Below the pieces are notes generated by a model, which worked only from the letters and a program-made list of their open reading frames with translations, was not told where the DNA came from and did no database searches. A program made the position numbers and the translations under genes. From the NCBI RefSeq assembly GCF_000373565.1, contig NZ_KB891831.1, positions 187,330 to 251,329 of the forward strand: a stretch of DNA of 64,000 nt. The letters run 5' to 3'. Every line of letters begins with the position of its first letter. Position 1 is the stretch's first letter. Of the stretch, positions 8,782 through 43,303 are shown piece after piece. Origin of the DNA: Streptomyces sp. HmicA12 (lineage in GTDB: Bacteria; Actinomycetota; Actinomycetes; Streptomycetales; Streptomycetaceae).

Positions 8782-8887
8782 GGCTGGTCGCGCAGTTCCC
8801 CGCGCCCCTGAAGCATGCGCTCCGCGCAGCTTCCCCTGGAGCGAGCGGAGCTCGCTGGCAGGGGCGCGGGGAACTGCGCGACCAGCC
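8782..8887. repeat. Perfect 28-bp inverted repeat with inner hairpin (dispersed Streptomyces palindrome)
   Basis: Two perfectly complementary 28-nt arms (8782-8809 and 8860-8887) contain the core GCGCAGTTCCCCGCGCCCCT. The 50-nt centre includes a second hairpin, AGCGAGC-GGA-GCTCGCT. It lies between the convergent lysR and VOC genes and could act as a bidirectional terminator. Related copies occur at 24659-24863 and 43168-43303. The same core is a common intergenic element in Streptomyces genomes (recollection, not a search). Confidence 0.85.
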
Positions 8888-23413: not shown

Positions 23414-24613
23414 TCAGGGTGCGTAGACGCCCGCCCGGTACTTCGGGATGCGGATCGTGATCTTCGTGCCCGCGCCCACTCCGGTCTCGATCACCAGGCC
23501 GTACGCGTCGCCGAACACCTGACGCAGGCGCTCGTCGACGTTGGACAGGCCGATGCCGGTCGTCCGGTCGCCCTCGCCGCGCAGGACCGCCCGCAGCTTC
23601 TCCGGGTCCATGCCCACGCCGTCGTCCTCGATGACGACCTCGGCCTCCGCGCCCGCGTCCGTGGCGCCGATGGAGATGCGGCTACGGGTGACGGCGCCCT
23701 CCAGGCCGTGCTTCACCGCGTTCTCCACGAGGGGCTGCAGGCACAGGAACGGGAGCGTCACCGGGAGGACCTCCGGGGCGATCTGCAGGGTGACGGTGAG
23801 GCGGTCGCCGAAGCGGGCGCGGACCAGGGCCAGGTACTGGTCGATGGAATGGAGTTCGTCGGCCAGGGTGGTGAACTCGCCGTGGCGGCGGAACGAGTAC
23901 CGGGTGAAGTCGGCGAACTCCAGGAGGAGTTCGCGGGCCCGCTCCGGGTCCGTGCGTACGAACGACGCGATCGCCGCTAGGGAGTTGAAGATGAAGTGGG
24001 GCGAGATCTGGGCGCGCAGGGCGCGGATCTCGGCCTCGATGAGACGGGTGCGCGAGCGGTCCAGTTCGGCGAGTTCGAGCTGGACCGAGACCCAGCGGGC
24101 GACCTCGTCGGTGGCGCGGGCCAGGACGGCGGACTCGCGGGGCGCGCAGGCGACGACGGCGCCGCGGACCCGGCCGTCGGCCACGATGGGCGCCGCCACC
24201 GCCCAGCGCAGGGGGCAGTCGACGGTGTCGCAGCCGCAGTCGAACGCGACGGTGCGGCCGCCGGCGAGCAGGGGTTCGAGTTGCGGCATGACGTTCTTGG
24301 CGTGCGGGTGTTCGGCCGTGCCGTCCCAGGCCAGGACCGTGGAGCGGTTGGTCAGGGCGAGGGCCTCCGTGCCGAGGAGGCTGCGCAGGCGGCGGGCCGA
24401 TTTGCGGGCCGTGTCCTCGGTGAGGCCCGCGCGCAGGGCCGGGGCGGCGAGGGATGCGGTGTGGAGGGTCTCGAAGGTGGCTCGCTCCACGGGGGTTCCC
24501 ACGTCGCTGCGGCCCGTGGGGTGGGCCGTGCGGCGGCCCAGCAGGAAGCCCGCGCCGAGGAGGACCGGGCAGAGGGCGAGGAGGGTCGCGGTGACCGTGC
24601 CGGTGGCTGTCAC
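23414..24613 (-). CDS. LytS-type sensor histidine kinase
   Basis: The protein is 399 aa. One N-terminal TM helix (VTATLLALCPVLLGAGFLLG) leads to a GAF-like sensor region (about 50-200) with a CGCDTVDCPLRW Cys cluster. The His_kinase dimerisation region is RALRAQISPHFIFNSLAAIASF (phospho-acceptor His in SPHFIFN), and the HATPase ends with EDDGVGMD and TGIGLSNVDERL. The LytS/YpdA family controls membrane transporters in response to metabolites such as pyruvate. The GTG at 24613 overlaps the symporter stop (GTGA). The order LytR, DUF485, symporter, LytS on one strand suggests a kinase reporting on the symporter substrate. Confidence 0.9.
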   Translation of the reverse strand: MTATGTVTATLLALCPVLLGAGFLLGRRTAHPTGRSDVGTPVERATFETLHTASLAAPALRAGLTEDTARKSARRLRSLLGTEALALTNRSTVLAWDGTAEHPHAKNVMPQLEPLLAGGRTVAFDCGCDTVDCPLRWAVAAPIVADGRVRGAVVACAPRESAVLARATDEVARWVSVQLELAELDRSRTRLIEAEIRALRAQISPHFIFNSLAAIASFVRTDPERARELLLEFADFTRYSFRRHGEFTTLADELHSIDQYLALVRARFGDRLTVTLQIAPEVLPVTLPFLCLQPLVENAVKHGLEGAVTRSRISIGATDAGAEAEVVIEDDGVGMDPEKLRAVLRGEGDRTTGIGLSNVDERLRQVFGDAYGLVIETGVGAGTKITIRIPKYRAGVYAP

Positions 24614-26382
24614 TGGTCTTCGCCTCTCGCCGTGGTCGGCCCGGTCGCGTCGCGGATGCCGGTCGTGGGTGGCTGGTCGCGCGGTTCCCCGCGCCCCTGA
24701 TGCCCACCCGCCGCTGTCCATTGCGGCGTCTCGCGGATGCCGGTCGTCGGTGGTTGCTCGCGCAGTTCCCCGCGCCCCTCAGAGGCGCCACCCGCCGTCC
24801 TCCCGCCGGTCCCCTCGGCGGTGACCGTCGTCGGTGGTTGCTCGCGCAGTTCCCCGCGCCCCTTTGGGGCGATGGACCTCTGGGACTTCAAGGTTTCCGG
24901 CAGGTGGAGGCGGGTCATGGTGGCTGTGGTGTGTGGGGGGATCGCCTCGGGTGTGGCCAGGGAGACCAGGATCATCGCCAGGAAACCGACCGGGACCGAC
25001 CAGACCGCCGGCCAGGCCAGGAGGGTGTGGAGCCAGCCCGAGGTCGCCGCTCCGGAGACCGTCAGGGTGACGGCCAGGAGCGCCGAGCCGCCGCCCAGGA
25101 AGAGGCCTGCCAGGGCGCCGGGCGGGGTGAGGCGGCGCCACCAGATGCCGAGGACCAGCAGGGGGCAGAACGAGGACGCCGAGACCGCGAAGGCCATGCC
25201 GACCGCGTCCGCCACCGGCACCCCGTCGACGAGCAGGGCGCCGCCCAGGGCCACCGCCATCGCCAGGACCACGCCGAGCCGGAAGTGGCGCACGCCTCGG
25301 GTGGGGAGCACGTCCTGGCTCACCACTCCGGCCACCGCCATCGTCAGGCCCGACGCCGTGGAGAGGAACGCCGCGAACGCGCCGCCCGCCACCAGCGCGC
25401 CCAGGAGGTCGCCCGCGACACCGTCCACGACGCGCCCCGGCAGCAGCAGGACGGTGGCGTCCGCGTCCTGGGCTGCGGTGAGTTCGGGGACGTAGAGGCG
25501 GCCGAGCCAGCCGTACAGGGGCGGCAGCAGGTAGAAGACGCCGATGAGGGCCAGGACCACCACCGTCGTGCGGCGGGCCGCGCCGCCGTTGGGGCTCGTG
25601 TAGAAACGGACCACCACGTGCGGGAGGCCCATCGTGCCGAGGAAGGTCGCGACGATCAGGCCGTACGTGGCGTAGAGCGGATGGTCGGCGCGGCTGGTGG
25701 CGAGCGGCTGGCCCGCGCCGGCGCCGGCCGGGGGGAGGTCGCCCGAGGAGAGGGCCGGGGGCTGGCCGCCCTGGCCGCGCCAGGCGAGGAGCAGGAAGAA
25801 GGCGGGGACCAGGAGCGCCGTCAGCTTCAGCCAGTACTGGAAGGCCTGGACGAAGGTGATGGAGCGCATGCCGCCCGCGGCGACGGCCAGGACCACCACC
25901 ATGGCCACCAGCGCGGCGCCGAACCAGCGGGGCGCCCCGGTGAGGATCTGCAACGTCAGCCCCGCGCCCTGGAGTTGGGGCACGAGGTACAGCCAGCCCG
26001 CCCCCACGACGAACATGCTGACCACGCGGCGGACCCGGCGGGACTCGAGGCGGCCCTCGGCGAAGTCGGGCAGGGTGTACGCGCCCGAGCGGCGCAGCGG
26101 TGCCGCGACGAAGACCAGCAGGACGAGATAGCCCGCCGTGTAGCCGACCGGGTACCAGAGCATGTCGGGGCCATGGACGAGCAGCAGGCCCGCGACCCCG
26201 AGGAACGAGGCCGCCGAGAGGTACTCGCCGCTGATCGCCGCCGCGTTGAGGCGCGGGCCGACGGTGCGCGACGCGACGTAGAAGTCGGATGTCGTGCGGG
26301 AGATACGCAGGCCGAAGCCGCCGATGAGGACGGTGGCGAGGACGACGACGGCCACCGCGGGTATCGCGTACGCCTCGTTCAC
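24610..26382 (-). CDS. Sodium:solute symporter (SSS, ActP/MctP-like) with repeat-derived C-terminal tail
   Basis: The protein is 590 aa. About 13 TM helices of an SSS transporter cover residues 1-510, with SGEYLSAASFLGVAGLLLV, GMRSITFVQAFQYWLKL, GGAFAAFLSTASGLTMAVAGVVSQDV and AFAVSASSFCPLLVLGIWW visible. The preceding DUF485 partner points to an acetate/pyruvate/short-acid transporter of the ActP/MctP type. The last 75 residues are unlike the family: GRGELREQPPTTGIR recurs three times, encoded by intergenic-type palindrome halves at 24659-24863. The GTG at 26382 overlaps the DUF485 stop (GTGA), and its own stop overlaps the LytS start. Probable tail extension by repeat insertion. Confidence 0.88.
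   Translation of the reverse strand: MNEAYAIPAVAVVVLATVLIGGFGLRISRTTSDFYVASRTVGPRLNAAAISGEYLSAASFLGVAGLLLVHGPDMLWYPVGYTAGYLVLLVFVAAPLRRSGAYTLPDFAEGRLESRRVRRVVSMFVVGAGWLYLVPQLQGAGLTLQILTGAPRWFGAALVAMVVVLAVAAGGMRSITFVQAFQYWLKLTALLVPAFFLLLAWRGQGGQPPALSSGDLPPAGAGAGQPLATSRADHPLYATYGLIVATFLGTMGLPHVVVRFYTSPNGGAARRTTVVVLALIGVFYLLPPLYGWLGRLYVPELTAAQDADATVLLLPGRVVDGVAGDLLGALVAGGAFAAFLSTASGLTMAVAGVVSQDVLPTRGVRHFRLGVVLAMAVALGGALLVDGVPVADAVGMAFAVSASSFCPLLVLGIWWRRLTPPGALAGLFLGGGSALLAVTLTVSGAATSGWLHTLLAWPAVWSVPVGFLAMILVSLATPEAIPPHTTATMTRLHLPETLKSQRSIAPKGRGELREQPPTTVTAEGTGGRTAGGASEGRGELREQPPTTGIRETPQWTAAGGHQGRGEPRDQPPTTGIRDATGPTTARGEDQ
24659..24863. repeat. Three in-frame copies of a GCGCAGTTCCCCGCGCCCCT repeat inside a coding region
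   Basis: About 40-nt units begin at 24659, 24740 and 24824, so the periods are 81 and 84 nt, both multiples of three. Each reads roughly CCGGTCGTCGGTGGTTGCTC then GCGCAGTTCCCCGCGCCCCT. The 24659 copy has two substitutions near its middle. They are the half-element of the palindrome at 8782 and 43168, here as direct repeats and translated within the symporter tail. Confidence 0.9.
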
Positions 26383-26756
26383 GGCGCCCCGGGGTCCTTG
26401 GTGTCGCGGCCGCGGACCAGGGCCGCGAAGTCGCGTTCGTTGCGCTCGGCCCTGCGCACGTACCACCAGGCGATGAGGACCAGGAAGGGGTAGCAGCCGA
26501 AGCCGAGGACGAGCCATTCGACGGCCGCGTTGCGCAGGGCGCCGAAGAAGAGGGGAAGCACCGCGACGGGAGCGGCGAGGACCACGAACGCACTGATGCC
26601 CGCGCGGAGTTGGCTGCGCATGAGGGAGCGTACGTAGGCGGCGCCGAGCGTGGTCTGCTCGTCGATCTCCCACTGGGTGCGCAGACCGGGCGGACCGGCC
26701 GCGCCGTGCGCGGTACGCGGCTCGCCGGTCACCACCTGTCGTCGGGGTTCGGACAC
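26379..26756 (-). CDS. DUF485 small membrane protein, partner of the symporter
   Basis: The protein is 125 aa. Two TM helices (ISAFVVLAAPVAVLPLFFGAL and WLVLGFGCYPFLVLIAWWYV) fit the YjcH/DUF485 family. These genes almost always sit directly upstream of acetate or monocarboxylate SSS symporters and are thought to assist them. The GTG start at 26756 is 45 nt after the response regulator stop. Its stop overlaps the symporter GTG. Confidence 0.88.
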   Translation of the reverse strand: MSEPRRQVVTGEPRTAHGAAGPPGLRTQWEIDEQTTLGAAYVRSLMRSQLRAGISAFVVLAAPVAVLPLFFGALRNAAVEWLVLGFGCYPFLVLIAWWYVRRAERNERDFAALVRGRDTKDPGAP

Positions 26757-26801: not shown

Positions 26802-27551
26802 TCAGCCGGTGGCCCGGCGCATCAGCAGTTCGCGCACCCGGCCCGTGTGGCGGCGGCTGACCGCGATCTCGGCGGTGCCGACGCGCACCGTCATCCCTGC
26901 GCCGTCCAGCCGGAGTTCGTCGATGCGGTGCAGGGCGACGAGGTGGCTGCGGTGGACGCGGACGAAGCCGAGGGGCTGCCAGCGTTCCTCGAGGGTGGTG
27001 AGCGGGATGCGGACGAGGTGGCTGGTGCCGTCAGTGGTGTGGAGCCGGGCGTAGTCGCCCTGCGCTTCGGCGTAGATGATGTCGGAGACGGCCAACATCC
27101 TTGTCACACCGCCGAGTTCGACGGGGATGCGGTCGGAGACGGTGGCCGGGGGCGGGGCGAGGGAAACCCGTTCGGCGACTCTTCGGACGGCCTCGCCGAG
27201 GCGTTCGCGGCGCACCGGCTTGAGGAGGTAGTCGACGGCCTTGAGCTCGAAGGCCTGGACGGCGAAGTCCTCGTGGGCGGTGACGAAGACGACGAGCGGC
27301 GGGCGGGCGAAACCGGCCAGGAGCCTGGCCACGTCGAGGCCCGTCAGGCCCGCCATCTGGATGTCGAGGAAGAGCACGTCGACGGCACCGTCGCCGCCGG
27401 GGCCCTCCTCCAGGGCACGGCCGATGCGGCGCAGCGCCTCGGTGGCGTCCGTGGCGCCCTCGGCGCTGCGTATTCGAGGGTCCGAGCGCAGGAGGTAGAG
27501 GAGTTCGGCGAGGGCGGGTTCCTCGTCGTCGACGGCCAGTACGCGCAGCAT
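26802..27551 (-). CDS. LytTR-family response regulator
   Basis: The protein is 249 aa. The receiver domain (about 1-125) has the acidic pair VDDEEPA, phospho-acceptor Asp in VLFLDIQMAGLTG, the Thr/Ser site FVTAHEDF and Lys in DYLLKPVRR. The LytTR DNA-binding domain (about 150-245) has IIYAEAQGDYARLHT and FVRVHRSHLVALHRI. LytTR regulators bind paired direct repeats near −70 to −80 of their target promoters. It lies upstream of DUF485 and the symporter on the same strand, with LytS last, so it is the cognate regulator. The divergent anti-sigma gene is 79 nt away. Confidence 0.93.
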   Translation of the reverse strand: MLRVLAVDDEEPALAELLYLLRSDPRIRSAEGATDATEALRRIGRALEEGPGGDGAVDVLFLDIQMAGLTGLDVARLLAGFARPPLVVFVTAHEDFAVQAFELKAVDYLLKPVRRERLGEAVRRVAERVSLAPPPATVSDRIPVELGGVTRMLAVSDIIYAEAQGDYARLHTTDGTSHLVRIPLTTLEERWQPLGFVRVHRSHLVALHRIDELRLDGAGMTVRVGTAEIAVSRRHTGRVRELLMRRATG

Positions 27552-43167: not shown

Positions 43168-43303
43168 GTGGCTTCTCGCGCAGTTCCCCGCGCCCCTGAA
43201 GGCATGCGCTGCGCGCAGCCTTCCCCTGAGCGAGCGAAGCTCGCTTAGGGGGCGCGGGGCCGTGCCGATCAGCGGCTCCGCCGCGGGGCGCGAGAAGCCC
43301 CAC
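43168..43303. repeat. Second copy of the dispersed palindrome, right arm interrupted
   Basis: The left arm (43168-43196) contains GCGCAGTTCCCCGCGCCCCT. The inner hairpin AGCGAGC-GAA-GCTCGCT is present. The right arm starts as AGGGGGCGCGGGG and then diverges before ending with CGCGAGAAGCCCCAC. It lies between the convergent GntR and TetR genes. The complete version is at 8782-8887. Confidence 0.8.

Follow-up and report, generated by a model that had tools for sequence, protein, structure and literature searches.

How does a palindromic repeat that lies mostly between genes come to encode the tail of a transporter? The question is raised by a 64,000-nt stretch of the genome of Streptomyces sp. 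HmicA12 (hereafter the window), in which a repeat array occupies the 3' end of an SSS symporter gene (Table 1). The original prediction held that three copies of a half-repeat from an intergenic palindrome family, spaced by multiples of three, had become the coding tail of this protein without breaking its frame or its coupling to lytS. The coupling is as described, since the symporter stop TGA (24612..24610) overlaps the lytS start GTG (24613..24611), and the symporter gene also overlaps the DUF485-like upstream gene by GTGA. The lytS frame is likewise open through the repeats, and a longer lytS call from 24721 (23414-24721, minus strand) is possible in automatic annotation; conservation favours the GTG at 24613 as the probable start.

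Table 1. Symporter operon, its repeat array, and other copies of the repeat family in the window
Feature	Position	Strand	Basis
LytS-type sensor histidine kinase, lytS	23414..24613	-	PF06580 1.6e-23, PF02518
SSS (sodium:solute) symporter gene, GTG start, 590 aa	24610..26382	-	PF00474 1.6e-40; ORF and frame
DUF485-like small membrane protein, 5' of symporter in operon	26379..26756	-	PF04341 E 9e-4, under curated cut-off
LytTR response regulator, first gene of operon	26802..27551	-	PF04397, PF00072
GTGA overlap, symporter stop / lytS start	24610..24613	-	XTGA kept in 58/59 orthologues
Native symporter end TARGEDQ-stop (TARGEEQ-stop in L082), just upstream of lytS start	24610..24633	-	DNA alignment
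Repeat-bearing stretch of C-terminal tail, codons 497-583	24634..24894	-	comparison with orthologues; alignment to L082 at the DNA level
Repeat copy 1 (GGGGCGCGGGGAACTGCGCG), read GRGELRE	24844..24863	-	half-repeat match
Repeat copy 2, read GRGELRE	24760..24779	-	half-repeat match
Repeat copy 3, one mismatch, read GRGEPRD	24679..24698	-	half-repeat match; 3' side colinear with L082 tail
Typical inverted pair of the family, very stable hairpin	8790..8879		outside predicted genes; folding z = -10
Single intergenic copy of the family	43178..43197	+	half-repeat match

The three half-repeats were found at the predicted spacings of 81 and 84 nt, in frame and in the same orientation, within the last ~85 codons of the symporter gene. 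The in-frame addition of three peptides likewise stands, with the qualification that the peptides (GRGELREQPPTTVTAEG, GRGELREQPPTTGIRET and GRGEPRDQPPTTGIRDA) are similar rather than identical. As this is a 55-contig draft genome, in which misassembly can affect tandem repeats and the copy number of the array rests on a draft contig, one could envision an assembly artefact or a chance resemblance; however, the window holds six half-repeat matches compared to 0.03 expected from shuffling, and the frame is intact up to the conserved end and stop, so we regard this explanation as very improbable. No match to the Rfam 15 covariance models was obtained between 24500 and 25000 at E values up to 1. 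In the AlphaFold model (whose mean pLDDT over the whole protein is only 62), residues 496-590 have pLDDT values of 30-43 and are almost all coil; the ~69 residues gained by the symporter are thus predicted to be disordered.

We compared the symporter with orthologues from ~100 loci in Streptomyces and other actinobacteria that retain the full C-terminus. None of these, the window's own locus aside, has the repeat core near the stop codon, and their tails extend 8-43 residues past residue 491, with a single distant match (51% identical) having 3. The finding that would have made the tail an ancestral domain, namely orthologues lacking the palindrome and yet carrying the same peptide repeats, was looked for among these ~100 loci and did not appear. 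In the closest orthologue, L082 (97% identical in the symporter), the tail is 30 aa as compared to 99 aa in the window, a net difference of 69 codons (207 nt); a second sampling of the genus yielded no closer relative. The L082 tail ends LHLPESLREPPRPAGTRPQPAPPTARGEEQ and that of the window TARGEDQ, and in the DNA the last codons (TARGE[E/D]Q), the stop, the sequence preceding the lytS start, and the GTGA itself are near-identical. Because L082 shares these end codons and the GTGA, and because the XTGA overlap in the lytS frame is present in 58 of 59 orthologues with an adjacent lytS (own locus included), the repeat lies within the tail and has left the coupling undisturbed. Sequence comparison thus indicates that the tail was extended in frame from within, by insertion or expansion, and that its native end was not replaced: the protein is longer, as the original prediction held, but the repeat sits inside the tail, which retains its native last codons and stop, rather than having become it.

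The short tail of L082 may itself bear on how the array arose. Colinear with unit three of the array, it fits the 3' half of the family unit, from the CTGCGCG arm onward, with a score of 12.9 bits; within the last 120 nt this score was reached by 0 of 1316 other genes and 0 of 3000 codon shuffles, or by 1 of 3000 shuffles when the possibly native LRE codons were held fixed. Since the match starts at these possibly native codons, masking its first 5 nt lowers the score to 4.3 bits. A repeat remnant in L082 is therefore probable, and it is suggestive of one unit having been present before the L082 and HmicA12 lineages split, such that the three-copy state may have been preceded by repeat material at this site. 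The three-copy array itself was seen in one species only, and expansion here and contraction in the relative are both compatible with it. The proposal of a repeat family expanding this protein is partly supported: it agrees with the orthologues that have no repeat, but is modified by the possible remnant in L082 and by the presence of several such cases in the genome. The remnant could also be taken as a sign that all three copies were already in an ancestral tail and disappeared from the relatives, which seems quite unlikely given that the ~100 more distant orthologues are without the repeat and end 8-43 residues past the conserved core. Deep ancestry is thus disfavoured by the sequences compared, whereas presence of the tail in the common ancestor of HmicA12 and L082 alone is still compatible with them.

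The description of the family as intergenic was confirmed. Copies with at most two mismatches number 454 in the 9.16-Mb genome (23 for a reversed control pattern), and in 2.06 Mb surveyed with a simple, purpose-written codon-usage gene finder, which placed the genes of the symporter operon as expected, 186 of 200 copies lay outside ORFs and only 14 within, even though 88% of bases are coding. Clusters outside ORFs show a preference for convergent gene pairs (48/105, versus 172/1107 gaps; Fisher p 6e-12). Between genes, at 43178-43300, the window also contains a composite of the family half-repeat and a related GGGGCGCGGGGCC...ATCAGCGGCTCCGCC element. Ten relatives that were searched had between 0 and 944 copies each; plasmid records gave two matches, both unannotated. 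The closest relative, G059 (L279-L298), has 894 copies, and a census of 400 kb of its genome found 49 copies, 1 of them in an ORF. As judged from these sequences, repeat arrays are rapidly remodelled from one sister species to the next, since the tandem period in G059 is 57 nt compared to ~82 nt here. A description of the family was not found in titles or abstracts of the open-access literature searched, nor by searching that literature for the repeat sequence, so an earlier description is possible.

Enrichment in convergent gaps, a location in which one expects terminator-like elements, together with the extremely stable folding of inverted pairs, could mean that the repeats are RNA or DNA elements (acting in transcript ending, mRNA stability or tuning of lytS) whose translation is incidental. 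For the symporter array this is unlikely: its copies are co-oriented, it folds no better than its shuffles (z -0.09, versus -10 for the intergenic pair in Table 1), and it lies within translated sequence. Its single orientation sets it apart from the wholly intergenic multi-copy clusters, 43 of 48 of which are of mixed orientation (the other 5 being single). This may be more telling than the spacing of the copies, although one array is an indication and not a test.

We considered the 81- and 84-nt spacings as proof of selection on the reading frame and rejected this idea. Both are indeed multiples of three and leave the frame unbroken, but they mostly reflect the family's own period of ~82 nt, with intergenic tandem copies mostly 81-83 nt apart. 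In any given sense frame, 88-92% of 81-nt family units contain no stop, and 6 of 26 intergenic tandem pair spacings in the 79-86 nt range are multiples of three as well, which makes the spacings weak evidence; three consecutive units would be open by chance about three times in four. With units open in every sense frame, the frame is therefore kept if the total length is right.

We thus conclude that, very probably, a REP-like intergenic family entered and expanded within the 3' end of the symporter gene, which kept its native stop and GTGA and gained ~69 residues. A high-copy repeat would have entered downstream of the conserved LHLPE motif but ahead of the last seven codons, with local tandem expansion following insertion. 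The GC-rich units are nearly stop-free in any sense frame, and the net length difference from the closest relative, 207 nt, is divisible by three; hence the native stop, the region preceding lytS and the GTGA were all kept. An array at this position would survive only if its copies were co-oriented, so that the translated RNA forms no long hairpin, and if its total length kept the coupling. The tail itself is most likely a tolerated, disordered by-product, comparable to those of Rickettsia palindromic elements, and not a selected feature. One could propose instead that its charged, proline/threonine-rich peptides have been recruited for a cytoplasmic function, such as connecting the transporter with the neighbouring kinase LytS; the array does keep one reading frame, so that the peptide is repeated, and the symporter is encoded together with the kinase, with coupling in nearly all orthologues that have an adjacent lytS. 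However, no orthologue has these peptides in common with the window, the tail is predicted to be disordered, and other proteins read the repeats in other frames and in antisense, so that no particular peptide is favoured. Recruitment of this kind is hence distinctly improbable.

Further genes of HmicA12 have ORFs containing copies of the family, mostly near the 3' end, and the family is read as GRGELRE, GARGTAR and GAGNCA as well as in the antisense readings AVPRAP / QFPAPL. A HisKA_3 sensor kinase (L185:5794-7107, minus strand) ends in the repeat tail GARGTARATTTHLNPPTNQPTNGATALERGSAG yet keeps an ATGA overlap with its response regulator gene; two orthologues without the repeat end LPTGVAR and LPTGGHP and have a GTGA overlap. 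A membrane protein (L201:12352-13365) has a tail of ~150 residues of repeat-like units with one core copy, while its orthologue L267 has none. The tail consists of tandem variant units (GGGGCGCGGGGCTGCATCCATCAGCGGCTCC), which apparently represent a second, related repeat family.

In three species, HmicA12, G059 and G142, iolC (PfkB) is joined with a Cgl0159-like gene in a single ORF (the three loci being L202:3301-5337, minus strand, L255 and L256), and in each of them repeat copies lie in the linker. The two genes are separate in 9 of 9 other relatives examined, most with an overlapping XTGA stop/start, and near these nine unfused junctions no match to the core better than five mismatches was found. 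The fusion is explained most simply by repeat insertion at the junction, though it might predate the repeats. Junctions that overlap by XTGA have no spacer to absorb a repeat insertion. Such an insertion could lengthen the upstream protein with the overlap kept, as would be the case for symporter-lytS and sensor kinase-regulator, or could abolish the stop and fuse the genes, as for iolC-Cgl0159. We tentatively propose, as a possibility that we rate slightly below even, that at XTGA junctions of repeat-rich Streptomyces insertion recurrently lengthens upstream proteins or fuses genes, and that turnover then diversifies the tails and linkers. Of the tail cases described here, two are at coupled junctions.

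The locus offers a directly testable case of an intergenic repeat turned protein in a bacterium that is free-living and rich in GC, with a close comparison at hand in the 97%-identical symporter that lacks the three-copy array. Coupled gene junctions are suggested as sites where repeats create tails and gene fusions, and caution is warranted in annotation, as some Streptomyces C-termini and linkers derive from repeats.

Among known systems, REP/REPIN-RAYT elements resemble the family in having hundreds of short palindromic copies, mostly extragenic and often in inverted pairs. REPs are extragenic by definition. The likeness is one of description, and the Y1_Tnp transposase domain (PF01797), whose profile has matches in 5 of 14 control genomes, has no match in the HmicA12 genome. 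MITEs, which can generate in-frame fusions (PMC10969869), are similar, by description, as non-autonomous repeats able to extend ORFs. In PARCEL, the palindromic amphipathic repeat coding sequence (PMC2996958), one element likewise serves as palindromic DNA and as a tandem unit of coding sequence. It is described as a coding repeat, unlike the Streptomyces family, which is mainly intergenic with peptides predicted to be disordered. Rickettsia palindromic elements (RPEs) are short, palindromic and non-autonomous, and lie in frame within unrelated protein genes, to which they add peptide (Ogata et al. 2000, 2002, as reviewed in PMC10969869). The family described here is likewise an interspersed palindromic repeat of many copies (454, with inverted pairs folding at z -10) and is inserted in frame in unrelated genes (symporter, sensor kinase, membrane protein, iolC-Cgl0159) whose orthologues are without it. 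In contrast to R. conorii, where nearly half of the RPEs are within genes and each encodes a conserved peptide (PMC10969869), only 14 of 200 copies here are in ORFs, mostly at 3' ends, and they yield no conserved peptide from one preferred frame, all sense frames and antisense being used. The Streptomyces family further differs in its tandem same-orientation arrays and its high-GC actinobacterial host, and given its variable frame and largely intergenic copies we do not class it as an RPE. Likened by description, with no homology claimed, RPEs are the nearest known system, alike in their mode of action.
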